Below, piece after piece: positions 3,636 to 37,115 of a DNA stretch of 64,000 bases; the first letter of the stretch is position 1, and each line of letters opens with the position of its first letter. The notes under the pieces are model-generated. The model was not told the DNA's origin. It ran no database searches and was given only the letters and a program-made list of their open reading frames with translations. The DNA comes from Adhaeribacter pallidiroseus (GTDB taxonomy: Bacteria > Bacteroidota > Bacteroidia > Cytophagales > Hymenobacteraceae), in the NCBI RefSeq assembly GCF_003340495.1, contig NZ_QASA01000001.1:4774001-4838000 (forward strand), in the 5' to 3' direction. A program made the position numbers and the translations under genes.

Positions 3636-3986
3636 TTAACAACAATTATTTGTGTGCGCTACTTTGCCCGTAAACAAAAGCAAGAAAGTAGCTCTTACTT
3701 CTTCCCACTTTTCATGATCAATGCAATAACACACACTGGTACCCTCCACGTTGCCTTTAATTAAACCTACAGCTTTTAGTTCTTTCAGGTGCTGCGATAT
3801 GGTAGCTTGGGCCAAGGGTAATTCTTCTACTAAATTGCTGCAAATACAAGTCTGCTGTTTTAATAAATACTGCAGAATAGCTATTCTGGCCGGATGGGCC
3901 AAAGCTTTGGCGTAATTAGCCAATTGATTTTGCGCTTCGGTAAAGTGTTGTGCTTTTGTAGCTCCCATAAAATATTTAATAACCAT
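3636..3986 (-). CDS. arsR: ArsR/SmtB family metalloregulator
   Basis: A 116-residue winged-helix repressor and the first gene of the ars operon. It has the ArsR core LANYAKALAHPARIAILQYLL, then CICSNLVEELPLAQATISQHLKELKAVGLIKG. The CIC pair sits at the usual As(III)-binding start of the recognition region, and the protein ends in two further Cys (NNCC). An inner Met at residue 7 (MGATKAQ) is an equally good start. By analogy with the family it should repress its own operon until As(III) binds; the operator would lie just upstream, at about 3987-4030. Confidence 0.88.
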   Translation of the reverse strand: MVIKYFMGATKAQHFTEAQNQLANYAKALAHPARIAILQYLLKQQTCICSNLVEELPLAQATISQHLKELKAVGLIKGNVEGTSVCYCIDHEKWEEVRATFLLLFTGKVAHTNNCC

Positions 3987-4671: not shown

Positions 4672-7600
4672 ATGCAAAACAAATTTACTCCTATCATTCA
4701 TTATCTACTTTATTCGTTTATAAACAACCTGTACTGGCTTTCTAGTGCTCTTATTTTCCTGTTAATTTTTGGTTTCAACAACCTGGCTACCGCTCAGAAT
4801 ATTATTTGGGATAAAACCATTGGCGGGGCAGATGATGAGGAATTAGCAACCATACAGCCAACCCGTGATGGCGGCTATATCTTGGGCGGCTTTTCCGAAT
4901 CTGGTAAAACCGGGGATAAAACCAGTACTTCCAAAGGTGATTATGATTATTGGGTAGTTAAATTAAATGCCGATGGCAGTAAAGCCTGGGACAAATCTTA
5001 TGGCGGGAAAGGACGTGATTTTTTAATGACAGTGCTACAAACCCAGGATGGCGGCTATATTCTCGGGGGTACTTCTGAGTCCGGAAAGAGCGGCGATAAA
5101 ACGGGCGATCCTAAAGCATCAGCAAATACTGATGGAAAATATCCTCCTGATTTCTGGATTGTAAAAATAAGTGCCAATGGTACCCAGGAATGGGATAAAA
5201 CATTAGGCACCACGGGATACGACTACTTTTTTGCTAATTTAGTGCAAACCCCAGATGGTGGCTATCTGCTGGGAGCAAATACGGAATTAGGTATTTCGGG
5301 GGATAAAACGCAAGCCAGTAAAGGATCAACGGATATCTGGTTGATCAAGTTAAATGCCATGGGCCACAAGCTTTGGGATAAAACCATTGGCGGCAGTGGC
5401 CCCGATCATATAGCCGACTTGCAGGTAACTCCAGACGGCGGGTATTTAATTGGAGGAAGCTCTAATTCCGGTATTTCCGGGGATAAATCACAGGCCAGCA
5501 AAGGGTTTTCTGATTTCTGGCTAGTAAAGTTAAAAGCCGATGGCAGCAAACTTTGGGATAAAACCATTGGCGGTAACCTGGATGATGGAATAGGTGTCGT
5601 TCAACAGACAAACGATGGGGGCTACCTGCTAGCGGGTTCTTCTAGTTCCGGCATCAGTGGTAACAAGTCGGAAGCCAATTTAGGAAAGCCGGATACCTAT
5701 GATATATGGGTAGTGAAGTTAAAAGCTAATGGCACCAAAGAATGGGATAATACCATTGGCGGGAATGGGAGAGAATACGTATCTTCTCTGCAATTAACTC
5801 AGGATAGCGGCTATATTCTCGGGGTACTTCGGACTCCGACGTTTCCGGAGATAAAACCGCACCTAACCTGGAGCCGACGATTCAGAGTGAATACCCCGGG
5901 TAGAGGATTATTGGGTAGTGAAACTGAAAGCAGACGGCAGCAAACAATGGGATAAAACCTTAGGCGGTACCGATACGGACCGGTTAACTTCGGTTCTACC
6001 AACCAGCGACGGCAGCTTTGTGGTAGGGGGCACTTCTATGTCCGGCGCTAGCCTCGATAAATCCGGAGCCTTAAAAGGGGGCAGATTTTATGGCGATATC
6101 TGGGTAGTAAAACTAGATAACGCTATCGGCAATCGCAAAGAACAAATTATAACTTTTAACCCTTGGTTAATCAGAATGTTCGAGATTCTCCCATTACCCT
6201 AAAAGCTACTTCCACCTCGGGCTTACCCGTAAGTTTTAGCGTAGTATCGGGCCCCGCCACAATAAAAAACAACCAACTTACCCTAACGGGTACCCGAATG
6301 GTTACTATTAAAGCGTTCCAGGCAGGCGATGCTACGTATGGTCCGGCAGCCGTTAGCCAACGCTTTCTGGTGTACAATTCCCCGGTAAGCCAGGTTTGGA
6401 ATAAAACTTACGGCGGGGTAGTAACCGATGAAAATCCGGATTCGCCCTGCGTGGAGGAATACCAAGATCTGTACGGCGCGTCCACTTTACGGGCCATGGT
6501 GCGTACTCCCGATGGGGGTTACCTCTTGGGGGCACCTCTGATTCCCGGCAAGGAAACGACAAAAGTACTACTTACCGGGGAGTGCTTACCGATGGTTGTT
6601 ATGGGAAGAATGCTATCAAAGATTACTGGATAATAAAAATCGATGCTAATGGCAAAAAGCTTTGGGATAAAACGTTTGGAGGTGATCAGGAAGAGATTCT
6701 AACTTCCCTGATCGCGACCCGGGATGGAGGTTACTTATTAGGGGGTATTTCGCAGTCAGGCAAGAGTGGGGATAAGAGTGAGCCGGCCCTAGCGAATGGC
6801 GATTACGACTACTGGCTGGTAAAAATAGATGCCGCCGGCAACAAGGTTTGGGATAAAACATTAGGTACTACTAATGCTGATTTTCTTACCTCCCTGATCG
6901 CTGCCCCAGACGGTGGTTATTTACTGGGTGATAATAATTTTTCGGTAACCAAGATTGATGCTACCGGGAAACTAACCTGGAAAAAAAGCTTTCTTAGCGC
7001 TACCAATTCTTTTAGTCCTAACCTGAAAGCTTTACTTCTTACCTCAGATGGAAACTATTTACTAGGTGGTGGTTCTTACATTAAGACTAATTATAATTAT
7101 CGGGTACTTAAACTAGATACCAACGGCGATCTAGTGTGGGATAAAAGCTACGGCGGCGCTTCCTCCGATCAATTGGAAGCGCTAGTGGCTGCTCCGGATG
7201 GTGGCTACCTCCTGGGCGGCACCTCTAATTCTACTGCAACTGGCGATAAAACGGATAATCCCAGAGGAACAGCCGGACAATCGGATTACTGGATTTTAAA
7301 AATTGATTCTAATGGTACTAAGGAGTGGGATCAAACTTTAGGAGGAGCACAAGCCGATGAACTAGCTGATCTGATTTCCACTCCGGATGGCGGCTATTTA
7401 CTGGGAGGTACGTCCACTTCTTCTAATAATGCTTTTAATATGTACGAAAAAAGTGAGCCTTTACGGGGGTATCGCGATTATTGGGTAGTAAAAGTAGATG
7501 GGCAAGGAAAAAAAGAGTGGGATAAAACAGCGGGCAGTTACCTACCCGACCTTCTTTCTACTATTATTGTTGATGCGAAAGGGGATTACCTGTTAGGGGG

Positions 7601-9267
7601 AACTTCGTATTCGGATATCGGCGGCGATAAAAGTGAAGCCCGTAAAGGATTACAAGATTACTGGGTGATTAAGCTCCAAGATAAAACACCGCTGGTTACT
7701 ACTACCTGGGACATGCGTTACGGGGGTTACGGCACGGATAACTTGAGCTCGCTGATCCAAACGGCGGATGGGGGTTACTTGAGCGGGGGGTACACCAACT
7801 CGGGCGCGACGGGGGATAAAAGCCAACCCAGCCAGGGCAAGAACGACTACTGGATCGTTAAATCCGATAAGAAGGGGCAAAAAGAATGGGATAAACGCTA
7901 CGGCGGTTACTCGGATGATTACTTGAACCAGGTGCTCCAGACCCCGGATGGCGGGTACCTTTTGGCCGGTTCTTCTTACTCCCAGCAGAGTGGAGATAAA
8001 AGCCAGGCCAGTAGAGGCGACCGGGATTACTGGATCGTGAAAACCGATAAGTGGGGGCAGAAAGAATGGGACCAACGCTACGGGGGCACGGGGAAGATGA
8101 ACTCCAGAAAGTGATCCCGCTGGCCTCGGGGCACTACCTCTTAGCCGGCAGCAGCAACTCGCCCCAGAGCGGCGACAAGAGCCAGGATAGCCGGGGTGGG
8201 CAGGATTACTGGGTTCTCCAGATCAACCCGGCTGGGCAGAAAGTCTGGGATCGGCGTTACGGGGGCAGCCAAGATGACGTACTCGCAGACGTAGCCTTAG
8301 CTCCGGATGGCCATCTGCTGCTGGGCGGCAGTTCTTTCTCCAGCTCGGGAGGGGACCGCACGCAAGGGAGCCGGGGAGGGAGTGATTTCTGGGTGGTCCG
8401 CCTGGATGGAAACGGGGAGAAAGGGTGGGACCGGCGTTTTGGCGGTTCCCGGGAAGATAAGCTGACGGTGCTGGGGACTACGCCTACCGGTAACCTGTAC
8501 CTGGCGGGTACGACGGCTTCCCAGTCCGGGGGCGATCTCACCTACCGCAGTAGAGGCTTTACGGATTATTGGTTTATAGAAATAACGAACAGCGGCACCA
8601 AAGTATGGGACAGGCTATTCGGCAGTAGCCAGCAGGAAGAACTGCGCGCCGTGCAGGTCACCCGGGATGGAAACTATTTACTGGCGGGCTCTTCTAGCTC
8701 CGGAGCTCATTTAGATAAAACCCAGCCGAGCCAGGGCGGCAGTGATTACTGGGTAGTGAAAATGAACCGTCCTTATGTGATCTGGGACAGGCGCTACGGG
8801 GGCAGCGCAGACGAGGAACTCCGGGCCATGGTACTTAATAATGATGGGAGCTTTTTGTTAGCCGGCCGCTCGAGTTCGGGGGGAGTGGCGATCGGAGCCA
8901 GCCGCGGCAAGGTGGTCCAGATTACTGGTTAATAAAGGGCCGTGAGCAAGCGGGTGCCAGGACCGTTGCCCGTACGGCCACCTCAGAGCCGGTTGCGGTT
9001 GCGCCACCCGCTACCTGGCAGGCTTATCCCAATCCCTTCCGGGAGCAAGTAACCGTTCGCTTTACCTTAGCCGAAACGCAGGCCGTTACCGTGCGGGTAC
9101 TCGATAGCCAAGGGCGCGCCATCACCACCTTAGGGCAAGAGGAAGCACAAGCCAATCAGCCCTACGAGCTGGAATGGCAAGCGGGTAAGCAACCAGCCGG
9201 CATGTACTTGTTGCAGTTACAAACTCCTACCCACCAATACACCCAAAAACTACTCTTAACCAAGTGA
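4672..9267 (+). pseudogene. Giant T9SS-exported repeat protein, six -1 frameshifts
   Basis: Read across its breaks, this is one gene of about 1,530 codons. It has an N-terminal signal peptide ending ATAQ, about seven repeats, an Ig/MBG-like insert (LKATSTSGLPVSFSVVSG, around 6180-6390), about fourteen more repeats, and a T9SS type A sorting domain (YPNPF near 9025 to KLLLTK at the end). Each repeat of about 48 residues runs WDKTIGG...DGGYLLGG.SxSG.SGDKS...KG..DYWVVK. The frame slips by -1 near 5821, 5896, 6162, 6530, 8086 and 8911, each at a G, C or T/C run. Sister repeats keep the longer run: 5063 has five G where 5821 has four. Function unknown; secretion to the surface is implied. Real decay and consensus errors are both possible. 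Confidence 0.8.
4800..8930 (+). repeat. About 21 tandem repeats of roughly 48 codons
   Basis: Anchor motifs W-D-K-x-x-G-G and D-G-G-Y-L-L-G-G recur every 140-210 bases. I count seven before the Ig-like insert at about 6130-6400 and fourteen after it. From about 7700 the repeats become visibly GC-richer (runs such as TACGGGGG, CCAGAGCGGCGAC) and switch from WDKT to WDRRYGG. That suggests this block was amplified or acquired separately. Confidence 0.8.
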
Positions 9268-22041: not shown

Positions 22042-23037
22042 TTACTTCTGCAATACCATTACGTCGTTCATCATGAAGGTAGTACCGGCGGCAGCTTCAA
22101 TGTTGTATACTTTTTGCACGCCACCCGCGTATTCGGCTTTGTTTAATACCGTGAATGGTTCGTATTTGCCGGTTTTGCTGTTGTAGCACAATACTTCTTC
22201 CCCCAGGTTTATTTCGCCCATTTTGCGTTTTCCTTCGCGGGTTTGCATCGGGTGATTTGGAGTAGCTTCCAGCACTTTGCTGCTTAAGCTTACCTCTTTG
22301 CCCAGTTTACTCGTTTTTTCGGAAGCGCTGGCTACCAGTAAACGGGTGATGGCGTAGTTTTTAGCTTCGTGCGACACCAGTTCTTTTACCAGTACCGTCG
22401 TTGATTTTTTAGTAGCCGGGTCAATGGTTAAAACCTGATCGCCGGCTTTTACTTCTTTCAATAATTTTTGCTGGCCGTTGGCCATGGCTACCAACTGGTC
22501 GCCGGGGAAGCAGATATCATTGCCGTAGGTAGCCGATTCCGCTTTTAAATCTTTGCCCTGGTTTAAAGCTTTGTATTGCTGAAACGCCAGTTCTTTCGAC
22601 AACACGTAAGACAGCTTCAGCACAAAATTTTTTTCTTCTTTATCAATGGCGTGAATATCTTCGAAATAGTTTTCCCACACCTTGCCATCGGTAGTGAAGT
22701 TAGGCAACAGAGCTTTGTATAATTTGCCTTTTTCGTTGGTGTAAAATACCAGGGTACCGAGTTCCTGCATGCCTTCTTTGCTTACCAAGCGGTACAGATC
22801 CATGCGTTTTTTCAGGCCATCGTCGCCGGTAATAAAGTAGGGTTTGCGGCCTTCGTACCGGTCCAGGATATAAGCGTTTTCAATTTTAACGTAGGTATCG
22901 TTATCTAAATCTTTTACCGCAAAAGTTTTGGCTTTCTGGTATTCGGCCATGGTTAAAGGCCGCGATGTGCCGTTGCTTTGGGCGTGCGCCACGTACATGT
23001 TACCAATGAGTGCAAACGATAAGAATATTTTACGCAT
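22042..23037 (-). CDS. Secreted protein with C-terminal Hint (hedgehog/intein) domain
   Basis: A 331-residue protein with a signal peptide (cleavage near VAHAQ20). Residues 21-174 form an N-terminal domain I do not recognise. The Hint domain starts at C176 (CFPGDQLVAMANG) and continues KEVKAGDQVLTIDP, with the conserved TPNHP block at 259-263. It ends at VYNIEAAAGTTFMMNDVMVLQK. Autoprocessing Hint domains begin with Cys and normally end in His-Asn; here the matching place reads Leu-Gln. It could still make the N-terminal acyl shift and release the N-terminal domain, but not a standard Asn cyclisation. It stands alone. Confidence 0.75.
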   Translation of the reverse strand: MRKIFLSFALIGNMYVAHAQSNGTSRPLTMAEYQKAKTFAVKDLDNDTYVKIENAYILDRYEGRKPYFITGDDGLKKRMDLYRLVSKEGMQELGTLVFYTNEKGKLYKALLPNFTTDGKVWENYFEDIHAIDKEEKNFVLKLSYVLSKELAFQQYKALNQGKDLKAESATYGNDICFPGDQLVAMANGQQKLLKEVKAGDQVLTIDPATKKSTTVLVKELVSHEAKNYAITRLLVASASEKTSKLGKEVSLSSKVLEATPNHPMQTREGKRKMGEINLGEEVLCYNSKTGKYEPFTVLNKAEYAGGVQKVYNIEAAAGTTFMMNDVMVLQK

Positions 23038-23397: not shown

Positions 23398-24563
23398 TTA
23401 AGATATCTGGCGGAAGGCATCGGCAAACGCCTGCATTTCTTCCATGCGGCCAATGCTGATGCGGCACCACTCCTGGTTATTAAACTTCCAGTTACGTACG
23501 CCTACACCGCGTTTCATTAATTCGGCGACAAACTTTTCGCCTTCCATTTTTAGGGGGAACATCACGAAGTTACTCGACGACGGAATGTATTCGTAGCCTT
23601 CTTTCTTCAGTACATCGTACAAAAAGTTTTTAGAAGCCATGGTTTTCTTTAAAGCATCCTGCAAAAAGGCTTTATCCTGATAAGCAGCTAAAGCAGCTTG
23701 TACCGAAGGAGCCGAAATGCTCATGCCACCGGCGGCATATTTGCTTAATTCTTTTACTACCTCGGGCTGGGCAATAATGTACCCTACGCGCAAGCCGGCA
23801 AAGCCATAAAGTTTCGAGAAAGTACGGGCAATAATTACGTTTTGTCCTTTATTCACGCAGTCCATCATCGAAGCGGCTTTGGGGTCTGGTAAATAATCAA
23901 TGTAGGCCTCATCAATAAATACAGGCACTTTTTTAGAAACTCTTTCGCAGAAAGCCCGGAGCTTACCCGAATCTACTACAGTACCGGTAGGGTTATTCGG
24001 GTTACAGATGTACATCAGCGACGTGCTGGCATCTACCTTTTTTCCATGGCGTCCAGGTCTAACTTGTAGTCCGCGGTTAAGGGCACTTTGTTCCAGGTAG
24101 TGTTAAAATCAGAAGCGTCGCGGGGTAAGCTGGCGTAGGTGGGGTCGCCGGAAACAATATTAGAACCTTCTTTTTTGCTGTAATACATGGCGGCGGCCAA
24201 CAACAAAGGTCCGGAACCGGCATCCATTAATACATTCTCTAGCTTTACGCCTTCGTAATCCGCAATTTTCTGGGCCAACTCCCGGGTATATTTCATGGGG
24301 TATTGGTAGCTGGTGTTCAGGGCATCCATGGCGGCTTTTTTAGCCTTTTCCGAAGGTCCGAAAGGATTTTCGTTGGCATTCAGGCGAGCTTTTAGTTCGG
24401 CCGGAGCACCCAGAATAATACTTTCTTCCGTAACTTTCTTCTCGAGGGTACGGGCAACCGGCTTAGCTACCAGCTGATTGATTGAGCCGGAAAAGAAAGT
24501 AATTCCTCCAGCTAAAAAAGCACTGGACTTGAGCCAGTTACGTCTGTTCATTGATTTTTCCAT
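23398..24563 (-). pseudogene. Tat-exported HisC-like PLP aminotransferase, one -1 frameshift
   Basis: Reading through a single lost A in the A-run at 24038-24043 gives an enzyme of about 388 residues. The N-terminus MEKSMNRRNWLKSSAFLAGG is a twin-arginine signal, so it would fold in the cytoplasm and act in the periplasm. The rest is a fold type I aminotransferase close to histidinol-phosphate aminotransferases: LNANENPFGPS, CNPNNPTGT, FIDEAYIDY, the PLP-lysine motif ARTFSKLYGFAGLRVGY, and WCRISIGRMEEM. An exported enzyme is unlikely to serve histidine synthesis. It lies 64 bases downstream of the amine oxidase on the same strand. A half-site of the nearby inverted repeat precedes it. Confidence 0.8.
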
Positions 24564-24627: not shown

Positions 24628-26216
24628 TTAGCCTTTAGAAGTAACTGGGTATTGTACCCGTTGCTCCGCTAACCGGGAGTGAATGGAAGCTACCACGCTG
24701 CGGGCCGATTCAAAAGCGCCGGCCATCCAGGCGGTTAAATAGGTAGTGTGTTCGCCGGCGAAGTACACGTTTTGGTCGGGTTTGAGCAGCGCCGGATATA
24801 AGGTTTTGCGGGCTTCGCTGTTGTACACGGCCCAGCCGCCCAGGTTGTATTTGGTTTTGTGCCAGCTTACCGAAAACGAGGTTTCAAATTCTTGTTTGTA
24901 CTGCGGATGAATAAGGCTGCCTTTTTCCAGGGCCAGTTTTTCCCGGTCAGCCATGGATAAATCGCCGACCATTTTGGCTTTCTCGTTAAAGTTATAATAC
25001 CCCAGCAGAATGCCTTTTTTACTTAGGTAATCGTACGACGGGTAAAAAATCTGGGTAAGCTCGTTGTTGGTGTGCGTAATGCCGCCGTAAATCTGCTCGT
25101 CTTCTTCCCAGAAGCGCCGTTTAAACTGTAAGCCTATTTTGCCGGTTTGGATGTAAGGCACAAAATCAATGGCGCGGCTCACATCCGAAGCAAAATTATG
25201 ATCAATGTTACTGAGCACCGGTAAGGGCAAAGTGCAAATGCATATATCGCCGGTTAACTCGTGCTCGCCTTGTTTATCTTTATAAATAACTTTTACGCCG
25301 GTGGGCACATTTTGCACGGTTTTTACCTCGGCTCCAAGCTTTAGGGAACCCGCCACTTTCTTTTCCAGGGCTTTGGCAATATTATCCATGCCGCCTACGG
25401 CCTGGAACATGGTCATTTGCAGCTCATAGGTGTACTCGGCTACATTATAAAAATCCGGGTCCAGCAAACCAGATTGGATAATATCAGCCAGTTTATGTGG
25501 GTCACCTACTTTCCCGGACTTTTCACCGGCCCCGGCGATTCCAGGTAACCCCGGCGTGCGGAAGCTTTGTATAACTTATCTATATCCAGGCCGCCTTCGG
25601 CGCGCAAGTATTCCAGCACTTTGGCGGCGTCTTCCTTATTTAAAGCTAAATCCAGTTTATCCTGGTCCAGGGCTTTGGCGAGCAGCTCGGTCATGTAGCC
25701 GCGCATGTCGTTGTGGATTTCGCGGGCGCGTACTTTTTTATTCGATAAAGCGCCTTTGCCTTCGCTGAAGTAATAAGTGCCTTCGTTTACATTATTATAT
25801 ACCTCCAGCGGTACGCCTAACTCTTTACAATAATGCATGGTGAGCTGGTGGTGATGCGGAATACGCGACGGGCCGGCATTATAATATAAGCCATTGTCGA
25901 AATTAGCAGTTTGCACCGGTCCGTCTCCTTCCTGGTGGGTAGATCCTTTCCGGACACTAAATACGCGACCGCCGGCCCGGGTTCGGGCTTCCAGAATAGT
26001 AGTGCGGTAACCTAATTTATTTAACTCGTAAGCAGCCGTCATGCCGGCTAAACCACCACCCAAAATCAGGACGTGTTTGCCTTTACCATCACCGGATAAA
26101 TTAAAAGCATGCGCCGGAGCACCGGGCAATAAACCGAGCGCCATCATAGCCGGATAAGCACTTCCGGCAAGCATTGCGCTCTTACTTAAAAAAGCTCTTC
26201 GGGATAGATGTTTCAA
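24628..26216 (-). pseudogene. Tat-exported flavin amine oxidase, one -1 frameshift
   Basis: Restoring one G in the G-run at 25513-25515 (plus-strand CCC) joins two frames into an oxidase of about 530 residues, bridging SPGPVKSPGKVGDPHKLADI. The start is TTG at 26216 (MKHLSRRAFLSKSAMLAGS), a twin-arginine signal ending near APAHA. The FAD site is VLILGGGLAGMTAAYELNKL...LEARTRAGGRV (about residues 48-82). The C-terminal FAD motif is YFAGEHTTYLTAWMAGAFES. The family (monoamine and L-amino-acid oxidases) oxidises amines to imines with release of hydrogen peroxide. It is divergent from an exported RidA, which would hydrolyse such imines. Confidence 0.82.
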
Positions 26217-26510: not shown

Positions 26511-26975
26511 ATGAAAAAGTGTTTTTACCTATCCTGCGCTGTTGTTTTGTTATCGGCTACGGCCAGCTTTGGACAAACCGCGGGCACCCAGCCCGAAAAG
26601 AAAATTATTAAAACCGACCAAGCTCCTCTACCAGTAGGGCCTTACAGCCAGGGCGTATTAGTAGATGGTTTTTTGTTTGTAGCGGGGCAAGTGGGCGTTA
26701 ATCCGCAAACCCGCCAGTTAGCGTCGCAAAGTTTTGAAGCCGAAACCGACCAGGTGCTTAAAAATTTACAGGCGATATTAAAAGGAGCCGGCATGGATTT
26801 CCGGCACGTCGTTAAAACTACTATTTACTTAAAAGACATGGGCCAGTTCGCGAAAGTAAACGAGGTGTATGGTAAGTACTTTACCGTAGAGCCGCCCGCT
26901 CGTGAAACAGTGCAAGTATCTAATTTACCCAGCAACGCCAACGTAGAAATCTCGGTTATTGCCGCTATGCATTAG
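26511..26975 (+). CDS. RidA family imine deaminase with signal peptide
   Basis: A 154-residue RidA/YjgF protein. The first 22 residues (MKKCFYLSCAVVLLSATASF, then GQ) are a signal peptide, so it is exported. The RidA core follows: KTDQAPLPVGPYSQGVLVDG, FLFVAGQVGVNP, then VVKTTIYLKDMGQFAKVNEVY. The ending PPARETVQVSNLP carries the Arg that binds the substrate carboxylate. Family members hydrolyse reactive enamines and imines from PLP enzymes or flavin oxidases to ketoacids and ammonia. Three Tat-exported enzymes that could make such intermediates are close by, which suits a periplasmic clean-up role. Confidence 0.88.
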   Translation: MKKCFYLSCAVVLLSATASFGQTAGTQPEKKIIKTDQAPLPVGPYSQGVLVDGFLFVAGQVGVNPQTRQLASQSFEAETDQVLKNLQAILKGAGMDFRHVVKTTIYLKDMGQFAKVNEVYGKYFTVEPPARETVQVSNLPSNANVEISVIAAMH

Positions 26976-27354: not shown

Positions 27355-28686
27355 TTATTTGCTGCTGGTGCGGTTAGCGGCGGTCACGTTTTCTTTGGCA
27401 ATGGCGTGAATGGTATCTACTAAGCGGTCTAAATCTTTAATGGGAGTATATATGTGCGGGGTAATGCGCACACCACTAATATTTTCCCAAACCGTGGCCG
27501 ACGTATGAATGCGGGCGCGTTTAAATAATTCGCTGGCTACCTGCCCGGGCTCCATGCCTTTTAAGGCGAAAGTACATAAAGCTCCCGAAAACTCGGGTTT
27601 TAGGGAAGTTTGCGTGGAAAAACCCGGTACGTTCAGACATTTCTCTACCCAGTAATTTTTTAAAAAATGCAGCCGTTTCTGCTTGCGCTCGTTCCCGATG
27701 GTGTTGTGAAAATTGATGGCATGGCCAATCGCCATTTCGGTCGGGAAAGAGCGGGTACCCAGCCGTTCGAACTTGCGAATATCGGGGCTTTGCGGATCTT
27801 CGGGCGCCAGGAGCGGCCATAAGTCCTTGATACGAGCTTGCTTTACGTACAACATGCCGGTGCCAAACGGCGAGCAAAGCCATTTGTGTAAGCTGGTGCC
27901 GTAGTAATCGCCTTCTAAATCCGGAATTTTGTAATTAATATGGGCAAAAGAATGTGCCCCATCGATTATTACTTGAATGGTCGGACTGTGTTTTTTAGCG
28001 GCCCGGCTAATCAAAGCCGCCGGTAAAATTTGCCCCGACCAGTTCATCAGGTGCGTAATCATGACGGCTTTAGTTTGGGGCGTAAAAGCTGCTTTAAATT
28101 TGCTAACAATCAATTGATTATCCTCGATGGGTAAGTCCAGGGAGATAAATTTTAAAATTATGCCGTCGCGCTTTTCGCGTTGCTTCCAGGCGTTAATCAC
28201 GTTGGGGTAGTCTTGCTTAGTCAGGACCACTTCGTCGCCGCGTTGCAGGTTTATGCCGAAAATAATAGTTTCCAGAGCTTCGCTGGCGTTGCGGTTAATG
28301 GCAATTTCTTCGGGCGAGCAACCACCCAGATCGGCTAATTTCATCCGGACTGCTTCGCGGGCTTCGTCTAAGGTGCGCCACATGTAATAGCTGGGGGCTT
28401 CGTTGCTCAGGCGGTTATACCGGTCGAGGGCATCCTGCACCACAATAGGCTGTGGACTTACCCCACCGTTGTTCAGGTTAATAATGTTGGGCGAAACCGA
28501 ATAGGCTTGCTGAATAAAACTCCAGTAATCTTCGTCGCGGGTTACATCTTCGGCCGCGGCAACTTCCGGAATAATTAAACCCGTTTCGGTTTTCCAGGCT
28601 ACCAACGCCGGACTAACGCTCAGCAAACCAGCCAAACCACCTATTTTTCGAACAAAGTTTCTTCTGGAATTTGAGTTATCCGGCAT
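27355..28686 (-). CDS. Tat-exported class V PLP enzyme, isopenicillin-N-epimerase-like
   Basis: A 443-residue aminotransferase class V enzyme. The N-terminus MPDNSNSRRNFVRKIGGLAG is a twin-arginine signal. The body has INLNNGGVSPQP, ATEAL-type INRNASEALETIIFGI, MITHLMNWSGQILP, the PLP-binding DGAHSFAH, and the PLP lysine in GTSLHKWLCSPFGTGMLY. The ending ISGVRITPHIYTPIKDLDRL is typical of the CefD/NifS-like branch. Related enzymes epimerise, desulfurate or beta-eliminate amino acids; the reaction here is not settled. It is the third exported PLP or flavin enzyme in the cluster and ends 45 bases from a terminator. Confidence 0.85.
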   Translation of the reverse strand: MPDNSNSRRNFVRKIGGLAGLLSVSPALVAWKTETGLIIPEVAAAEDVTRDEDYWSFIQQAYSVSPNIINLNNGGVSPQPIVVQDALDRYNRLSNEAPSYYMWRTLDEAREAVRMKLADLGGCSPEEIAINRNASEALETIIFGINLQRGDEVVLTKQDYPNVINAWKQREKRDGIILKFISLDLPIEDNQLIVSKFKAAFTPQTKAVMITHLMNWSGQILPAALISRAAKKHSPTIQVIIDGAHSFAHINYKIPDLEGDYYGTSLHKWLCSPFGTGMLYVKQARIKDLWPLLAPEDPQSPDIRKFERLGTRSFPTEMAIGHAINFHNTIGNERKQKRLHFLKNYWVEKCLNVPGFSTQTSLKPEFSGALCTFALKGMEPGQVASELFKRARIHTSATVWENISGVRITPHIYTPIKDLDRLVDTIHAIAKENVTAANRTSSK

Positions 28687-28965
28687 GAGAATTACTGATT
28701 TTTAGTGGTAGGTTTTCCGTTTTAAAAATGATTTTTATTATAATTCAACTGCTCAAAGCCTCAGCTATACTTCTTCTTACATTAATATAAAAATAATTTG
28801 CTACAATAACGACTAGTTATCTAATTAGAAGGGAAATCAACTACACCAACCCTTCCTTATCTAAGGCGGGGAGCTTTTTTTCAGATGCCATTTACTAGAG
28901 TAAGTTTGTGGAAGTTATCCTCCCCCTACCCCTTCCGAAGCGGAACTAGTACGTTCTAATTCTAT

Positions 28966-29411
28966 CGCGAGCGTCCTCGCTCGTGATGACCATCGTTCGG
29001 CCTCTGGCCGGTGGTAAGTTTAGGTTGTTAGCCTTTTATTCAAGTTTATCGGTTTGCCCGGCCAGAGGCCTCCTACATAGTAAGACACGAGCGAGGACGC
29101 TCGCGCCAGCGTGGATTAGTATGGCAGCAATTAGTTTTTTAAAATTGTGCTAGCTAGCTATGCAACATACAGCCTAAGCCCGGTGCAAAAGAATGACGCT
29201 AAACTGTTCGAGCGTTCAGCGAGTTTTTAGCGTCTTGACTTTTTTGGTTCTTTTTGTGTCAAGACAAAAAGAACAAATACCTAAACTATGAAACAACATC
29301 ACTAGGATACCAATGCTACAGTCTCCGCTATGCGAACAATGATTTTAGATTTATCTGCCTTGATCTGATTTAAAAGTCACGGAAGTAACTTCCGCGCCAT
29401 AGTATGCTATA
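28966..29411. repeat. Composite dispersed repeat, copy A
   Basis: Three blocks occur in the same order as at 44209-44774. (1) 28966-29105 has perfect 20-bp terminal inverted repeats starting CGCGAGCGTCC, with a nested 11-bp pair CCTCTGGCCGG/CCGGCCAGAGG. (2) 29194-29297 starts TGACGCTAAACTGTTC and holds the hairpin GTTCTTTTTGT/ACAAAAAGAAC. (3) 29373-29411 starts AAAGTCACGGAAGTAA. It fills most of the 763-base gap 28687-29449; no gene is seen there. Confidence 0.75.
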
Positions 29412-29449: not shown

Positions 29450-30574
29450 TTAACTCCGCATTCCCATCATCGCATCATTTAATGCAGCAATTACAATCTT
29501 AGTTTGCTCCGGATTAGGAGTCGTGTTCCAGTTATTGCGAATCGCATTGCCGCCCAGCACTAAACCATCTTTCCGGGGAATAATATACCCGTTGGGCGTG
29601 CTTAAGCGGTAATTGATTTCGGGTTGCGGAATCAGGAAAGATAATTGACCCGAAATAGGCATTAAGTTTTGGTCGTTGAACAAGGTTTTGGCACCTAGGC
29701 CGGTGCAGTTTACGACGCAATCTTCCCACAAAGCATCCACCTCTTCCAGGGTTTTAAACTCCTGCACTTGAATTTTGCCGCCAAATTTTAAAAAATCATC
29801 GGTGAGCAGGCGCAGGTAAGCCGGAATGTTGAAAACCATGTTGGGTTGGTTCACCACTTCTTTGGCCCGGAACGGGTGTTCACGGCGGGTTAGCTCGATG
29901 GGTTCTGGCAATTGTCCTTTAATGTGCAGTTTAGGTTCTTCTTTGTGCGTGCGACCGCCAATGATAAAATGATCGATCCAGGTAACAATATCGCCTAAAC
30001 CCAACAGGTTTTGGTACGTCCGGAAAGAATAGGTGCAGGCTTGCTCCCACAAAGCTTTAAATTCTGGAGTAACGTGCTCGTCCTCGCAGAGCAAATGCGC
30101 CGGCGACCAGGTGCCGGTAGCCATGCTGGACGTAACTTTTGGCCATAATTCTTTGTCGTAAATGGTGACAGTTTTGCCTTGTTCTTGGAGCAAACGGGCG
30201 GTAGTTAACCCCACAATGCCACAGCCAATTACCGCAATTTCTTTTTTACCGGTAGCCGCAGCGTTATTGGCGGCAATCTGGCCGGTGCCCCAGGAAAGCG
30301 AGAAGCCGCTGCCGCCGTGCCCGTAATTATGCACAATGGTTTTGTTACCCAGCATTTCTACGTCCAACCGGGGACCCAGAAGCCGGTAAGGCCGCAGCCC
30401 TACCGTTTCTTTCACGACCCGGTCCGGCGAAATCCGGACGCGCGGCAAGCGCCGGGAGCCCGCACTGGTGGCGCTACCGCGGTAAAGATTATTGGCCGGC
30501 GCACAAGAACCAGCCCCCATGGCCAAAGCCAGCCCGAGTGCCCCGGATTTTAACAGAAAATCTCTTCTATGCAT
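29450..30574 (-). CDS. Tat-exported D-amino-acid-oxidase-like protein, circularly permuted
   Basis: A 374-residue FAD enzyme. MHRRDFLLKSGALGLALAMG is a twin-arginine signal, with a possible lipobox at AGSC24. The FAD motif IAVIGCGIVGLTTARLL is not at the N-terminus but at residues 113-129. Before it lie GLRPYR (59-64) and VHNYGHGGSGFSLSWG (81-96), which in ordinary D-amino-acid oxidases come at the C-terminus. The protein ends just after PNGYIIPRKDGLVLGG, the substrate-Tyr segment that normally precedes the GxRPxR motif. So the motif order equals a circular permutation. It would oxidise D-amino acids or similar to imines. It lies 20 bases after a lipoprotein gene downstream of SusD/SusC. Confidence 0.85.
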   Translation of the reverse strand: MHRRDFLLKSGALGLALAMGAGSCAPANNLYRGSATSAGSRRLPRVRISPDRVVKETVGLRPYRLLGPRLDVEMLGNKTIVHNYGHGGSGFSLSWGTGQIAANNAAATGKKEIAVIGCGIVGLTTARLLQEQGKTVTIYDKELWPKVTSSMATGTWSPAHLLCEDEHVTPEFKALWEQACTYSFRTYQNLLGLGDIVTWIDHFIIGGRTHKEEPKLHIKGQLPEPIELTRREHPFRAKEVVNQPNMVFNIPAYLRLLTDDFLKFGGKIQVQEFKTLEEVDALWEDCVVNCTGLGAKTLFNDQNLMPISGQLSFLIPQPEINYRLSTPNGYIIPRKDGLVLGGNAIRNNWNTTPNPEQTKIVIAALNDAMMGMRS

Positions 30575-30594: not shown

Positions 30595-31035
30595 TTATTT
30601 TACTACTACCCGACTTGTTTTGGTAAAAGCCTGTCCTTTGTGCGAACCCGACCATTCCAGCACTAGGAATTTACCGGCTGTGGGAGCAGCTAATCCCAGT
30701 TCGGCCCAGGTTTTTTCCATGCTTACCTGACCCGCTGCATCGGTGGTTAGCTCGGTAATGGCCGCATTATTCAGCATTACTTTCACAGCTAAACCAGTTA
30801 CCGGGATAGTATCGATGCCTACCTTGTTATCCAGAATGCCACTTTTATCTAGTTCGTAAATGCCCGTGGTTACTTTTACCGGCTCGGTAGCCAAAAAGCT
30901 GGACCCAGATACGGTAACTAATACCGGCGATACTACCCGGTCTACTACCAGTTCGTCTTCTTTTTCGCAGCTCATTAAGAAAAAGCTCAGGGCAAAAAGC
31001 AGGGTATAAAATTTATGCAGATGATTTATTTTCAT
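30595..31035 (-). CDS. Small lipoprotein downstream of SusD
   Basis: A 146-residue protein with a lipoprotein signal: MKINHLHKFYTLLFALSFFL then M-S-C23-EKEDE. The mature part is a beta-rich domain with three VKV or VTV-type strands, one near LVTVSGSSFLATEPVKVT, and a tail KGQAFTKTSRVVVK. I do not recognise a family; an Ig-like fold is plausible. It lies 47 bases after susD and 20 before the oxidase gene, so all are likely one transcript. Probably an outer-membrane accessory of the SusCD pair. Confidence 0.7.
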   Translation of the reverse strand: MKINHLHKFYTLLFALSFFLMSCEKEDELVVDRVVSPVLVTVSGSSFLATEPVKVTTGIYELDKSGILDNKVGIDTIPVTGLAVKVMLNNAAITELTTDAAGQVSMEKTWAELGLAAPTAGKFLVLEWSGSHKGQAFTKTSRVVVK

Positions 31036-31082: not shown

Positions 31083-32552
31083 CTACTCTACCCACCACAT
31101 TTTGGTTTTTTTGTCGTCGGCGCCGCCGTTTAAAGAAATGCCGGCATCTAACTGAGATTTGTTCAGCGAGTATTCGGTAGATGGATACTGCAAACGGGTA
31201 GGCAATACCCCATCGTTCAGGAAGATAGCCCGGGTATCGGGGTTAGGCAGAACCGGGTAACCGGTGCGGCGGTATTCGGTCCAAGCCTCAATACCTTGAC
31301 CAAACAGCGCAATCCATTTTTGAGTGAGAATGTTTTCTTTGGTGGCCGATCCGGCCGTTGCCAAATAATCGGCGGGCATGGTTAAACCGTACTGATTAAA
31401 GGAAGCGGCAATAGCTTGTTCGTAATACATCTGAGCATCACCGGTAATGTCGCCGTCAACGGCAGCTTCGGCCAGGGTAAAGAGCAATTCGGAATAGCTC
31501 ATGATAACACTGGGCGTGGTAGTCTGCAAGAAGTACGTTCCAATCTTGGCGCTGGTAGCCAGGTAAGTGGTGGCAATCGCATCGGGCAAACCGTTCGGGA
31601 TGCCAATGTATTGGTTATTCACCGGCTGGCCGTAAACCGCTAAGCGCGGATCGTTCAAGGCTTGCAGTTTATCTACCAAGGTTTTGCTCAAGTTCCAGTC
31701 AGTACGGCTTTCCTGAATCATTACCTGGTTCCACTCGTTGTTGCTGGGTAAACCGTTGGCGTTTTTCAGCACTGCGTAATCGGCGTTGCTGGAGAAAATC
31801 GGGTATTTGGCCGGATCGCCTAAAATTTCGGCCATAATAGCCCGCGACTCGGCTGGCTTTTTGGCAGCTTGCCGGTTGGCTAGTTTTAAACGCAGCGAGT
31901 TGGCAAACTTCTTCCACATGTCAATTTTGCCGCCGAACATAATGTCTCCCGAAATAGCCGGACCACCAACCGTTAACTTTTCGTTGGCAATTTTTAAAGC
32001 TTCCAGCAAACCGGCATAAACCGCTTCCTGCGAATCGTACTTCGGTGTGTAAATCGGGGTTTCGGCGGTACCTTGTAAAGCTTCGGTATAAGGAATAGCG
32101 CCGTAAATATCGGTTAATAACGAAAATACCCAGGAACGCATTACCAAGGCGGCGCCTTCGTAGTTGGCATTCGGTGCGGTTCCTTCCGGGCCGGATTGCA
32201 CAATAATCCGCTGGAAGTTTTGCAGGGCGTCGTTGTAAAAGCCTTTCCAGTTATTGGTGTAATAAGCCGGGCTCATGTTGTAGTTATCGCCTTCGTCGGA
32301 GTAAATATTGCGGGCCAGGTACTGCACCCACAGCATGCCGCCATCCAGGTTGATGCGCTCAAAACGCGCCCGGTGTCCCCAGTAACGGTCCACGCTCGAC
32401 TCAATGCCGTTGGGCAGCAATACCGCCGAACTTACCGCCGAGGGTTTGTTGGGGCTCACGTTCATGGATTCGAAGTCTTTGGTACAGGCACTCGCCATAA
32501 AAGCTCCGGCAACTACGTACGAGGCTATTTTGATTTTGGAATATATTTTCAT
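31083..32552 (-). CDS. SusD/RagB-like outer-membrane lipoprotein
   Basis: A 489-residue nutrient-binding lipoprotein. The signal ends VVAGAFMASAC23. The family pattern is clear: SPNKPSAV near the start, helical TPR-like stretches, SYSELLFTLAEAAVDGDITGDAQMYYEQAI, then WIALFGQGIEAWTEYRRTGYPVLPNPDT and PTRLQYPSTEYSLNKSQLD (SusD-like_2 type). It would sit on the SusC barrel and hand it a ligand. The exported amine enzymes downstream hint at a nitrogen-bearing ligand such as a peptide or amino compound; this is inference. Confidence 0.9.
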   Translation of the reverse strand: MKIYSKIKIASYVVAGAFMASACTKDFESMNVSPNKPSAVSSAVLLPNGIESSVDRYWGHRARFERINLDGGMLWVQYLARNIYSDEGDNYNMSPAYYTNNWKGFYNDALQNFQRIIVQSGPEGTAPNANYEGAALVMRSWVFSLLTDIYGAIPYTEALQGTAETPIYTPKYDSQEAVYAGLLEALKIANEKLTVGGPAISGDIMFGGKIDMWKKFANSLRLKLANRQAAKKPAESRAIMAEILGDPAKYPIFSSNADYAVLKNANGLPSNNEWNQVMIQESRTDWNLSKTLVDKLQALNDPRLAVYGQPVNNQYIGIPNGLPDAIATTYLATSAKIGTYFLQTTTPSVIMSYSELLFTLAEAAVDGDITGDAQMYYEQAIAASFNQYGLTMPADYLATAGSATKENILTQKWIALFGQGIEAWTEYRRTGYPVLPNPDTRAIFLNDGVLPTRLQYPSTEYSLNKSQLDAGISLNGGADDKKTKMWWVE

Positions 32553-32703: not shown

Positions 32704-35700
32704 CTAGAATTTCACATCCAGGCTCATCCCGAAGCTGCGGCTATTTGGCAACTGGCCGTAAGTAAAACCTTGCGCGTTACCACCTTGTGAATCTACTTCC
32801 GGATCAATGTGCGGGGTATTCTTGAACAAAATAGCCAGGTTACGACCAACGAACGAGATACGGGCAGATTGCGCTCTAATGGATTTAGTTAGGAATGCCG
32901 GCAGTTGGTAGCCTAAGCTTACTTCGCGTAATTTCACGTAGCTGGCATCAAAAATCGCGGATTCGTGGTAGGTACGCGGATTGTTGTAGCTGTAGAAAAG
33001 TTTGGCATCGGCAATTACATCGTTGGGCACGTAAACCGGAGCATCGGCAGTTCCTACGTTTTTCACACCTTTACCAATTACGCCTTCTTCGCGACCTACG
33101 GCCGTTTCGGCATATTGGCCGGTCCAGCGGGCAGTGCCGGTTCCTTCGTCGTAAATATCACCGCCTTTCCGAACATCAATTAAAGCGCTTAGCGTAACAC
33201 CTTTAAAAGTGAACGAGTTAGAAAGACCACCAATCCAATCCGGCTGAATGTTGCCCAGTACTTTTTGACCTGGCGCTACTAAGGGCGTACCGCGTTCTTT
33301 GTCATATACAATCTGGCCATCGGGAGAGCGTAAAAACGCGGTGCCGTAGAAAGTACCGTAAGGCTGACCAACCCGGGCTTCGGTAGAAAGTCCGCGGGTG
33401 GTGTAAAGCGTGTAAGTGGTTAAACCTTCGGCCAGTTCTACTACTTCGCTGCGGTTACGGGCGTAGTTTACCGAAACATCCCACTGGAAGCTGTTGGCTA
33501 ATTGCACCGGCGTACCGCTTAACATTAATTCGACGCCTTTGTTGGTAACCTCACCGGCATTTAAAAAGCGACGGTTATAACCGGTAGCCTTGGAAATTTC
33601 TACCCCTAAAATCTGGTCTTTGGTGCTCTTAGTGTAGTAAGTCGCGTCTAAGCTAATTTTGCCTCCTAAGAAACGAAGATCCGCCCCTATTTCCTGACCG
33701 GTCGTAATTTCGGGTTTTAATGCGGCGTTGTTAATATCAGTGCTTTCGCCAAAGCTCGGCACAGCGCCGTTCCACGGCGATTTTGCATCGTATACCTGGT
33801 ACAACTGGTACGGATCAGCATCGTTCCCTACCTGCGCCCAGCTGGCTCGTACTTTCGCAAAAGATAAAGCCTTGCCGCTGATACCCAGTAAATCGGTAAC
33901 TACCGCGCTCACCGACACGGATGGATAGAAGAAGGAATTTTTGTTGATGGGTAGGGTACTCGACCAATCGTTACGGCCGGTTACATCCAGGAACAAAGAG
34001 TTACGGAAGCCAAACTGAGCCGCGGCAAAAAGGCTTTGTACGTTAAACTCCTGCGTTTCGCTTTGATTAGTATTAGGGCTAGCATTATTGTTGAGCGTAT
34101 ACAGCCGATCGATTACTAATTGCTCTACTTGCGCAAAGCTTCGTTTGTAGAAATTGCTGCGGTAAATACCGCCCACCTGGCCATTAAACGAGAAATCTGG
34201 TCCAAAATCTTGCTTGTAAGTCAGCATAGCATCGTGGTTGGTTTCCTGGCTGCGCAGCACTTCTTCGTTAAATTGGCCAGCCCGGAAGTTGCCACCCGAA
34301 ATCCGTTCGAAGCGAGTAACATTGGTTCGGGTATCGCTCCAGAAGTCCGTACCGCTTCTAATCATCAAGCTAAATTTATCGTTGAAATCATACGAAATAG
34401 ACATATTCCCCCGTATTCTGTCTTTGTCGTTGGCATAGGTAAGAAACTCCTCGTTGTAAAAGGGATTAACAAAAAAAGTATGTTGCCAGTTAGGCGGCAG
34501 GTTATCGCCGGGTAATTGGTTATGCACCCCCACGTAATCGCGCCAGTTCTTCAACTGATCCCAGGAAACGGAGCGGTGCGCCCAAATAAAATCCTGACTC
34601 GACTGAAAAGATCTATTATCAGATCCTGATTTGATATACTCGGCACTAACAGTAGCCTTTAATTTAGAAGTGAGATTATAAGAAGAGTTCAGGTTAATAT
34701 TGTTTCTTTTAAAATCGTTGTTAAACATTATACCCTTTTGATCCAGGCGACCTATTGACAAACGAAAGCTGCCTTTATCGTTGCCTCCGACCAGGGCTAC
34801 TGAATTAAAAAACGTCTTTCCAGTTTCCCAATATTCTTCCCAGTTATCGGGATGCGGCGTTAAAGGGGCTACATTATCACCGGTCCACCATTGGCGCACC
34901 AAGCGGCCATCCATGGGCGCTCCCCAGCTTTCGTCGGTACCTTCGGTACCGTTCAATGGGGCATTGGGGCCATAAGCGGCGCGGTATTGCTCTATTTCCA
35001 AAGGATCGGTGATAGCACCGCTGCGGCCATTGTTAAACCACGTGCGGTAGCCATTACCACCTCCATAAGTATCCTGAAAATCTGGCTTTACTAAGGGTCG
35101 CTCGAAGGTGGCGCTGGAGCTAATTTCTACCCCAATGCCTTTGGTACCCGCTCCGTTTTTAGTTGTAATTAAAATAACACCGTTGGCCGCCCGGGAGCCA
35201 TATAAAGCCGCCGCATTAGGCCCTTTCAGGATAGACATGGAAGCAATGTTTTCCGGGTTAACTTCCGAGATACCACCCCCAAAGCGGCTTTCATTTCTGG
35301 TGCGCTGTCCGGTTGTTGGATCAACTCCTAACGTATTAGCTTGTTGAATAGGCACCCCATCTACAACCACTAACGGCTGGTTGTTGCGGCTTACTGAGCC
35401 CATACCCCGAATAACGATATTCGAACTGCTTCCCGGTCCGCCATTGCTGTTTACCTGTACCCCGGCCACCCGGCCCGATAGATTATTTACCACATTAGAA
35501 GATTTTACTTCGGCCAGTTTACTGCCGCTCACTTCCTGAATGGTATAACCCAAGGCTTTTTTCTCTCTTTCGATACCAAAGGCAGTTACTACTACTTCGC
35601 CTAATTGGGTAGCATCGGTAGCTAGGCTTACGTTAATGCTAGTTTTACCACCAACGGCAATTTCCTGGGACGTATACCCAATAAAAGAAAATACTAAGGT

Positions 35701-35901
35701 GCTGGTAGGCGGGCATTCTAAAGAATACATTCCTTCTGCGTTACTAACGGTTCCGGTGGTAGTACCTTTTACCAACACGGTTACTCCTGGTAAGGGTAAA
35801 TCAGCATCTACTATTTTACCGGTGACTTTAATGGGCTGCTGCGCCAGTACCGGCGACAGGGCTAGGGTAACAAGGGCATACAAGAGTAGTAATCGCTTCA
35901 T
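32704..35901 (-). CDS. SusC/RagA-family TonB-linked outer-membrane transporter
   Basis: I chose ATG 35901 (MKRLLLLYALVTLALSPVLA), a proper signal peptide; an upstream in-frame start at 36009 would put a charged leader ahead of it. The product is about 1,065 residues. It has a CarboxypepD_reg-like domain (VTGKIVDADLPLPGVTVLVK, then FSFIGYTSQEI), the plug domain (LGEVVVTAFGIEREKKALGY, IRGMGSVSRNNQPLVVVDGV, MSILKGPNAAALYGSRAANG), and a beta-barrel ending FGMSLDVKF. It imports a ligand with TonB energy, with SusD as partner. The operon susC-susD-lipoprotein-oxidase is on the minus strand. Confidence 0.92.
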   Translation of the reverse strand: MKRLLLLYALVTLALSPVLAQQPIKVTGKIVDADLPLPGVTVLVKGTTTGTVSNAEGMYSLECPPTSTLVFSFIGYTSQEIAVGGKTSINVSLATDATQLGEVVVTAFGIEREKKALGYTIQEVSGSKLAEVKSSNVVNNLSGRVAGVQVNSNGGPGSSSNIVIRGMGSVSRNNQPLVVVDGVPIQQANTLGVDPTTGQRTRNESRFGGGISEVNPENIASMSILKGPNAAALYGSRAANGVILITTKNGAGTKGIGVEISSSATFERPLVKPDFQDTYGGGNGYRTWFNNGRSGAITDPLEIEQYRAAYGPNAPLNGTEGTDESWGAPMDGRLVRQWWTGDNVAPLTPHPDNWEEYWETGKTFFNSVALVGGNDKGSFRLSIGRLDQKGIMFNNDFKRNNINLNSSYNLTSKLKATVSAEYIKSGSDNRSFQSSQDFIWAHRSVSWDQLKNWRDYVGVHNQLPGDNLPPNWQHTFFVNPFYNEEFLTYANDKDRIRGNMSISYDFNDKFSLMIRSGTDFWSDTRTNVTRFERISGGNFRAGQFNEEVLRSQETNHDAMLTYKQDFGPDFSFNGQVGGIYRSNFYKRSFAQVEQLVIDRLYTLNNNASPNTNQSETQEFNVQSLFAAAQFGFRNSLFLDVTGRNDWSSTLPINKNSFFYPSVSVSAVVTDLLGISGKALSFAKVRASWAQVGNDADPYQLYQVYDAKSPWNGAVPSFGESTDINNAALKPEITTGQEIGADLRFLGGKISLDATYYTKSTKDQILGVEISKATGYNRRFLNAGEVTNKGVELMLSGTPVQLANSFQWDVSVNYARNRSEVVELAEGLTTYTLYTTRGLSTEARVGQPYGTFYGTAFLRSPDGQIVYDKERGTPLVAPGQKVLGNIQPDWIGGLSNSFTFKGVTLSALIDVRKGGDIYDEGTGTARWTGQYAETAVGREEGVIGKGVKNVGTADAPVYVPNDVIADAKLFYSYNNPRTYHESAIFDASYVKLREVSLGYQLPAFLTKSIRAQSARISFVGRNLAILFKNTPHIDPEVDSQGGNAQGFTYGQLPNSRSFGMSLDVKF

Positions 35902-37115
35902 AAATCTTAATTTTAATGATGGGTGTTGTTTTTGTGTAGACAAGTAATTAATGGCAATGCGTAAACCGCACTCCTTTCCAGCGAAAGGCTTTAAAACATA
36001 GGTTGGCATCCGGGTTATGGCGTATTACAATGGGCAAAAATTATCTGACTCCCGACAAAAGCTGCCTGAGAATAGGAAATAACCGGAAACGTGGCGCGTA
36101 AAAATCAGGACTGAATCAACTCCGGATAACAGAATTGTTCAAAATAGCACGAAACTGTTTGTACCGGACAAGAACCAAATTAACCTTCAGGTTAACAGTT
36201 CTTAATAATAGATATTAGTAGCTTTTTACAAGATTTATTTTTCAAATCAATTCAAGGATTTTACCATTTTTGTTAATAGATCTAAAATTTACTTTTAGTA
36301 TCAGGTCCTTGTCTGCTTCGGGTTTTACAAAGCTACTGCTTTTTTGTTTTTACGGCTGGCTCGCCGGCCAGCATAAGAAGATTTGTACTTGTCTCTCCAT
36401 AATTTTCTCCCGGAAATAAAACTTTTTTTAATTTTTTAAAAAATCTGCCATAAACCACTCAGGTATAAAAAGCATCAACGTTGGCCAGACACAAAAGCTT
36501 TTCAGAGTTCTTAATAATTAAACAAATGTTTTATTGTTAATTATTGATTTGATACTATGCATAGTTACAAATAATTAATTAAAGTGAAAATATCATTGAA
36601 AAATTTACAAATCATCCAACTAACAGCTATAAAATTCTGACTTTAAAGTCCTTCGTTCATTATATTTCAGAAAACCCTTTAAAATCCAGCCCTATTTTTG
36701 AAATAATTCAAAAACATTCAACATTATATATTTTAAAATTATCGAAATACACCTTAAAATTTAAGGCCACTTACCTGATTTTTAATGTTTATTCATAAAT
36801 AACACACAAAATTTAAAGTGTATTTTATAAAATATATATGTTTACTTGATAGAATACTTAAAAAACAAATCATTACTTACTGATTTTTATCTATAAGTAT
36901 CATTACCCTGTCAAATAATAAAGCACTTCCGGTTTTTTTAGTTTTTTACTGGTGTTTACCTAAACTTAACTTAGGGGTAATATTCGGCTAATACTTCCTT
37001 CGTAGTTTTAAATGTTGAGAAATACAGCTGTTACGGTGTTCTGTTTGATCTCTTTTAAATCAAGCTTGTAATGGTAGAGCAGTTTCTTAATCAAAATTTA
37101 AAAATCGGAAGTACT
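35902..37115. other. 1.2-kb AT-rich gap without a recognised gene
   Basis: It separates susC from divergent plus-strand genes, so it should hold the susC promoter region. Bases 36200-36900 are very AT-rich with many short stop-filled frames. A small hairpin GCTGGC/GCCAGC lies near 36353-36373. I see no coding region, RNA gene or repeat family shared with the rest of the window. Confidence 0.5.

Follow-up and report, generated by a model that had tools for sequence, protein, structure and literature searches.

D-amino-acid oxidase (DAAO) is a textbook flavoenzyme, which is used in biotechnology and has been studied in brain chemistry. The solved members of the DAAO / D-aspartate oxidase group (PF01266; PDB 6rkf, 7ct4, 1an9, and 1c0i) carry GxGxxG, VNCTG, GQ, a YIIP-type Tyr segment, GG, the Arg of GxRPxR, and HNYGHGG. 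A protein encoded by Adhaeribacter pallidiroseus, hereafter pDAO, shares all of these elements and all can be aligned. It differs from these enzymes in that GxRPxR and HNYGHGG come first, and in that it has a Tat/lipobox-like N-terminus. The ThiO glycine oxidase (TIGR02352) and D-amino-acid dehydrogenase (PRK12409) families belong to the same broad FAD superfamily as pDAO and matched it weakly, with scores of 66.4 and 35.7 bits that lay far below the respective cut-offs of 250.8 and 494. To our knowledge, neither family has the HNYGHGG block. The sequence-only reading knew of no description of the permuted form, and this held for the open-access literature, in which no permuted D-amino-acid oxidase was found (a subscription paper could be missed). 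The kind of enzyme is known, and its permuted topology is new.

A second described system concerns imine removal, for which we draw on one paper whose first author we take to be Niehaus. Its main text (PMC4433059) reports that RidA hydrolyses imines made by L-amino-acid oxidase, that an Arg is essential for this hydrolysis, and that genes for FAD amine oxidases are found clustered with Rid genes. The locus studied here appears to follow the same logic, with a presumed imine producer next to an imine deaminase. Both proteins appear to be exported here, whereas the main text of PMC4433059 never mentions 'signal peptide' or 'periplasm'.

The pDAO gene was analysed within a window of 64,000 nucleotides, meaning the whole stretch of DNA under study, taken from a 6.43 Mb assembly with a completeness of 99.97%. 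The protein and its parts were located as follows.

29450..30574, minus strand: permuted D-amino-acid oxidase (pDAO), 374 aa, ATG start (ORF, PF01266, PDB matches, and profile tiling)
30503..30574, minus strand: putative Tat signal with a lipobox-like end, residues 1-24, twin Arg at 3-4 and Cys24 (conservation and pattern)
30263..30439, minus strand: transposed C-terminal block, residues 46-104, with R61 equivalent to pig R283 and HNYGHGG at 82-88 (6rkf match and profile)
30209..30226, minus strand: FAD motif GCGIVG, residues 117-122 (its three Gly do not vary across the 42 permuted and 39 canonical rows)
29450..30247, minus strand: FAD/substrate core, residues 110-374, matching the portion that comes first in ordinary DAAO (PDB, blastp, and profile alignments)

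The motif positions first read from the letters were correct, with GLRPYR at residues 59-64, HNYGHGGSG...SLSW at 82-95, GCGIVG at 117-122, and YIIPRKDG at 330-337. The same reading had the protein end just after PNGYIIPRKDG, and this was mistaken: 37 further residues (LVLGGNAIRNNW...) follow up to residue 374, a segment that ordinary DAAO likewise has after its Tyr segment. PF01266 (DAO) matched pDAO at E 2.2e-32 in two stretches, the best of which in Pfam was 113-367, illustrating that linear profiles cover permuted proteins just piecewise. Downstream of the gene, an imperfect long inverted repeat was noticed by eye at about 28965-29105 (GCGAGCGTCCTCGCTCGTG ... CACGAGCGAGGACGCTCGC).

The proposal that pDAO is a circular permutant of DAAO was supported by phmmer on PDB, blastp, and hhalign, each of which recovered two pieces in swapped order. 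Among all PDB chains, phmmer matched 17 sequences of DAAO or D-aspartate oxidase; two significant stretches were obtained for 15 of these, and the pieces were swapped in all five PDB alignments shown (the second pieces were weak for 1c0i). On 6rkf, residues 109-363 of pDAO aligned to chain positions 11-265 (i-E 1.4e-13) and residues 54-102 to 280-331 (i-E 2.3e-6). On the pig enzyme 1an9, residues 113-356 aligned to 3-254 and 48-98 to 270-323, and R61 fell on position 283. The same two swapped pieces were obtained by blastp against 18/18 canonical DAOs from other Bacteroidota. For hhalign, a profile of 51 permuted sequences was compared with a profile of 18 canonical sequences (312 columns). 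Permuted positions 110-367 paired with canonical 2-253 (E 1e-43) and positions 22-104 with 235-311 (E 1e-15); a third alignment had no significance. Together, the two swapped pieces covered the canonical profile almost wholly, with the moved block pairing with its final 51 columns. The N-terminal block scored 111.3, compared with at most 19.5 across 30 column-shuffled controls. The colinear order GxGxxG, Tyr, GxRPxR, HNYGHGG was absent from pDAO and, since its motif order is swapped, we class pDAO as a circular permutant instead of an ordinary DAAO member.

Solved structures were searched for the permuted order as well. With the permuted profile, none of the 17 solved sequences of DAAO or D-aspartate oxidase gave a best stretch that ran from the block into the core, and the longest match of the block stopped at position 113 (best stretch per chain). 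A rhizobial-type query against PDB likewise gave no best stretch from the block into the core of solved DAAOs, and no structure with the permuted order was found in these PDB sequence searches, judged by the best stretch per chain. The flavin monooxygenase 8er0, which is not a DAAO, gave a weak phmmer match (E 1.2e-4) across residues 82-142. With the permuted profile it covered just 103-145, which is the FAD strand.

A profile search of genome contigs with seven aligned homologues as the query returned 226 relatives, and the analysis continued with the 80 best. That homologues share the swapped order was confirmed in this set, the block lying ahead of the FAD motif in 80/80 loci. This count comes from the profile-based order; the motif pattern alone picked up 77/80, as variants including CTRPFR escaped it. 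Within the best 80 of 226, the closest relatives of pDAO were from Adhaeribacter (71-75% identity), most loci were, going by record titles, from Bacteroidota (e.g. Dyadobacter, Runella, and Larkinella), and Pelagicoccus (Verrucomicrobiota), Dyella, Frateuria, and a Steroidobacteraceae MAG were also included. Matches in a plasmid collection added Niveispirillum, Kozakia, Rhizobium, Bradyrhizobium, and Nonomuraea, and the Nonomuraea record extended the permuted form to Actinomycetota, beyond Bacteroidota, Verrucomicrobiota, and Pseudomonadota. Closer to home, the gene was present in 6/7 congeners, 0/17 genomes of the other genera of the family, and 1/14 of the other families of the order. The permuted form is not rare, though it is patchy.

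A 99-position profile of the junction was next run against phylum draws with a cutoff of E 1e-12. In Pseudomonadota, 20/398 genomes matched (centre included); all 20 were permuted, with matches spanning junction positions 2-11 to 97-98. In Verrucomicrobiota the profile matched in 5/194 genomes, four permuted with the junction spanned likewise (centre included) and one canonical. Bacteroidota gave matches in 39/395 genomes (own genome included), 2 of which spanned the junction fully, and the 30 loci taken comprised 27 canonical, the 2 full-junction, and one permuted but divergent member (L147, from genome G181). When a canonical actinobacterial query was used at E 1e-15, it matched 2/150 Pseudomonadota genomes, and both matches overlapped permuted genes (G455 and G506). 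Since the canonical query matched just genes already known to be permuted, the permuted form may be commoner than the canonical one in Pseudomonadota, a statement limited by how stringent the cutoff was and how remote the query.

Some individual members deserve mention. L147 has a Tat lipoprotein-like start, a CYRPMR/CNYGHGG block, and the longest end branch in the tree. Two tandem permuted DAO genes (L033:2507-3652 and 3836-4978) were seen in a MAG labelled Thalassovita; their SusC/SusD neighbours are Bacteroidota-like, and the MAG is probably mis-binned. On a Mesorhizobium plasmid, a permuted homologue (L108:3872-4935) is annotated as two overlapping genes. A natural two-subunit split was considered for it and set aside: because the break sits at the GxGxxG motif, a frame-broken gene is more likely, and other rhizobia carry unbroken homologues.

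To place the permuted proteins in a tree, the segments were re-set in DAAO order, and 81 thinned rows were used (42 permuted and 39 canonical). On one side of this de-permuted tree lay 41/42 permuted rows, with support of 94/93, and L147 was found on a very long branch among the canonical rows, outside the permuted group. All 42 permuted rows came together in just 4% of 200 bootstrap trees. Forcing them together cost 3.72 log units with a p-AU of 0.418, so that a single clade was not rejected. A quick core-only tree, from which the moved block was omitted, kept the 42 permuted rows together (SH-aLRT 87), with an SH-aLRT of 88 for the 41 rows other than L147. Judged from these sequence trees, a single origin of the permutation appears favoured, though unproven. 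It would most likely have arisen once, through tandem duplication followed by fusion and trimming. No intermediates with the block at both ends were found: among 176 ORFs with a block score above 40, none had a second copy scoring above 10.

The genes around pDAO in the window were the following.

32704..36009, minus strand: SusC-like TonB-dependent receptor, named by eye (homologue beside SusD in 5/80 loci)
31083..32552, minus strand: SusD-like protein (PF12771, E 4.6e-99)
30595..31035, minus strand: small lipoprotein-like protein (by eye) between SusD and pDAO (no Pfam match)
27355..28686, minus strand: PLP enzyme with a twin-arginine N-terminus, Aminotran_5; the best NCBIfam match was PvdN, far under cutoff (Pfam and NCBIfam)
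26511..26975, plus strand: RidA-family imine deaminase with an apparent Sec signal (by eye) and Arg 131 (TIGR00004 over cutoff; PF01042)
24628..26216, minus strand: flavin amine oxidase with a twin-arginine N-terminus, split in two ORFs (PF01593 in both pieces)
23398..24563, minus strand: HisC-like aminotransferase with a twin-arginine N-terminus, split in two ORFs (ORFs)

The order is thus SusC, SusD, the small lipoprotein, pDAO, the PvdN-like PLP enzyme, and then RidA on the opposite strand, with the split amine oxidase and the split HisC-like aminotransferase beyond it. Two Adhaeribacter relatives (L029 and L030) have the same gene order with the genes unsplit, the amine oxidase and the HisC-like gene being single long ORFs at the same places. 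The split genes of the window are either pseudogenes or assembly frame errors. A homologue of the PLP enzyme lay downstream on the same strand in 6/80 loci, and a homologue of the small lipoprotein was found together with SusC/SusD in 5/80. Elsewhere in the window, a long repeat protein (GGYLLGG...WDKT units) lies in four ORF fragments at 4672-8932 on the plus strand. At 22042-23037 on the minus strand there is a 331-aa protein with a signal-like start, the C-terminal half of which looks Hint-type-like by eye (CFPGDQLVAM...).

A RidA-family gene was located at most 6 kb from pDAO in 30/80 loci as well as in the window. The chance rate of such a gene is about 1% per 13-kb stretch, as estimated from the 5 PF01042 genes in the 6.43 Mb of the own genome. 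In 19 Bacteroidota loci and the two Pelagicoccus loci, RidA adjoined pDAO and was divergent from it; in 7 Larkinella loci it followed immediately downstream in the same orientation, and in L029, L030, and the window it came right after the PvdN-like gene. These genera are few and related, so the 30 loci represent far fewer than 30 independent events. Pfam confirmed RidA for one representative from each of two large groups, the family Arg was kept in 31/31 aligned neighbours, and an apparent Sec signal was seen by eye at the start of most of them. RidA was not found near the other 50/80 loci, some flanks of which ended at contig ends, and 27 Dyadobacter loci had a gene of the Beta_elim_lyase family downstream instead (one member tested). 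For 30 Pseudomonadota/plasmid-collection loci, a number that includes duplicates, no RidA turned up in the flanks, which mostly measured 1.5 kb; in the same survey it was near 3/4 Verrucomicrobiota loci. Near canonical loci RidA was found in 0/50, with flanks of about 1.5-2 kb and in a set unmatched by lineage. In the clustering of neighbours, the pDAO of 78/81 sequences fell in one cluster; in L106 and L107, at least, the simple ORF caller took other frames. In Pelagicoccus (L102:4478-5791 and L104:4607-5932, minus strand), the divergent RidA gene encodes about 440 residues with three RidA domains by eye; this protein may be a RidA trimer joined into one chain.

The Tat signal attributed to pDAO by the sequence-only reading stood in part: the twin Arg was present in 80/80 relatives, whereas the Pfam match to PF10518 was weak (E 0.27). 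By pattern, the twin-arginine motif preceded the block in all of the best 80 of 226, and a lipobox-like Cys followed it in 73/80. R3, R4, S23, and C24 were invariant in the seven aligned homologues, and pDAO of the window has Ala at lipobox position -3. Of the 42 permuted rows retained for the tree, 37 carried the Tat pattern, a count that includes matches to upstream sequence; in the high-GC ORFs L121, L123, and L131 the pattern hit an upstream stretch that probably lies outside the protein. L130 starts at the block. L109, L110, L111, and L134 are permuted and have no signal motif, and their tree neighbour L137 has one. As one permuted branch mostly lacks the signal, permutation and export are separable, and Tat export becomes less plausible as the cause of the permutation. 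The amine oxidase of the window, which belongs to the same gene island as pDAO, is likewise an FAD enzyme and begins with a Tat-like signal, and unlike pDAO it has the ordinary FAD-first order; Tat export therefore does not require permutation. Canonical members mostly start no more than about 30 residues ahead of the FAD motif, which leaves little room for a signal. Longer open frames were seen among them in L023/L161 and L172.

Conservation of the active site was compared between the two forms. The three FAD glycines, R61, Y84, and G88 were invariant in 81/81 rows (42 permuted and 39 canonical). R61 of GxRPxR was Arg in 42/42 permuted and 39/39 canonical rows and corresponds to pig R283, which we take to be the carboxylate-binding Arg; G88, equally constant in both forms, corresponds to pig G313. 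Both pig positions were derived from chain positions in the 1an9 alignment, and the residue roles are those we presume for the pig enzyme. Within the HNYGHGG loop, the His was kept in 41/42 and the final Gly in 42/42 permuted rows. Y330, the equivalent of the pig active-site Tyr (presumably Y228), was Tyr in 26/42 permuted versus 38/39 canonical rows, and G341 was replaced by Q in 13/42 permuted rows. Permuted members therefore need not all be D-amino-acid oxidases, and some of the wider permuted family may have changed substrate or activity. The rows with such replacements that were inspected (L106, L112, L113, L128, and L130) were from Pseudomonadota. pDAO of the window has the complete set of Y330, R61, G88, the GG pair, and G341.

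Several other explanations of these data were weighed. An assembly or annotation artefact could be suspected behind the swapped order, considering that two genes near pDAO are each broken into two ORFs. However, the same order was found in every one of the 80 related loci and in genomes from three phylum draws, which makes an artefact extremely improbable; an assembly rearrangement is excluded by these loci together with the further genome and plasmid-collection records. A different possibility is that the front block completes a neighbouring subunit in a domain-swapped dimer, so that the chain would not be a simple permutant in space. Whether the block is placed within or between subunits is here read from sequence, which leaves some room for this arrangement. 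The linker from HNYGHGG to GxGxxG was nearly constant nonetheless, at 35 residues in 22/27 rows, 36 in one, 39 in three, and 55 in one, as one fixed path predicts. A swap is still compatible with such a linker, and we regard it as very unlikely.

A more serious alternative accepts the permuted DAAO fold and gives it another job, that of a dehydrogenase or an amine/imino-acid oxidase passing electrons to cytochrome or quinone instead of O2. It would agree with the loss of the Y228 equivalent in 16/42 permuted rows. A cytochrome c gene comes directly after the Kozakia homologue, for which reason a dehydrogenase role is conceivable. On rhizobial plasmids, two signal-less homologues (L109 and L111) are flanked by a TPP enzyme on one side and an FAD-binding oxidoreductase on the other (in L109 of the BBE type), a context unlike that of RidA. 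However, pDAO of the window retains Y330, R61, G88, and the GG pair, and the nearby RidA fits a producer of imino acids. We consider this other job rather unlikely for pDAO.

The reading that we prefer, and hold to be probable, is that pDAO is a natural circular permutant of the DAAO family that acts as a Tat-exported, lipid-anchored D-amino-acid oxidase, with an exported RidA hydrolysing its imino product. The block that ends ordinary DAAO, made up of the carboxylate-Arg strand, the flavin-proximal HNYGHGG loop, and the final helix, is N-terminal in the pDAO sequence, where a connection of about 20 residues joins it to the GxGxxG strand, and the C-terminus of pDAO is the point where ordinary DAAO enters the block. 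Tat would export pDAO, probably already folded with FAD, and a lipidated Cys24 would anchor it in the membrane. Outside the cytoplasm, the enzyme is predicted to oxidise D-amino acids, with R61 gripping the carboxylate and FAD accepting the hydride, and the exported RidA would turn the resulting imino acid into a keto acid and ammonia. SusC/SusD beside the Adhaeribacter pDAO hint at substrate uptake, perhaps of peptides or cell-wall fragments.

On a wider scale, and with about even chances in our estimate, one ancient permutation may have founded a separate bacterial branch of DAAO that reaches at least four phyla and is possibly commoner than the ordinary form in Pseudomonadota. The main lineage of that branch would pair a Tat-exported lipoprotein with an exported RidA, forming a periplasmic module for D-amino-acid oxidation and imine clearing. 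If pDAO represents a natural, widespread permutant, then the last strand, loop, and helix of DAAO can enter from the front with the FAD glycines and the substrate Arg kept, and the permutant would give new termini for DAAO engineering. For environmental bacteria, pDAO points to extracytoplasmic D-amino-acid oxidation coupled with imine clearance.
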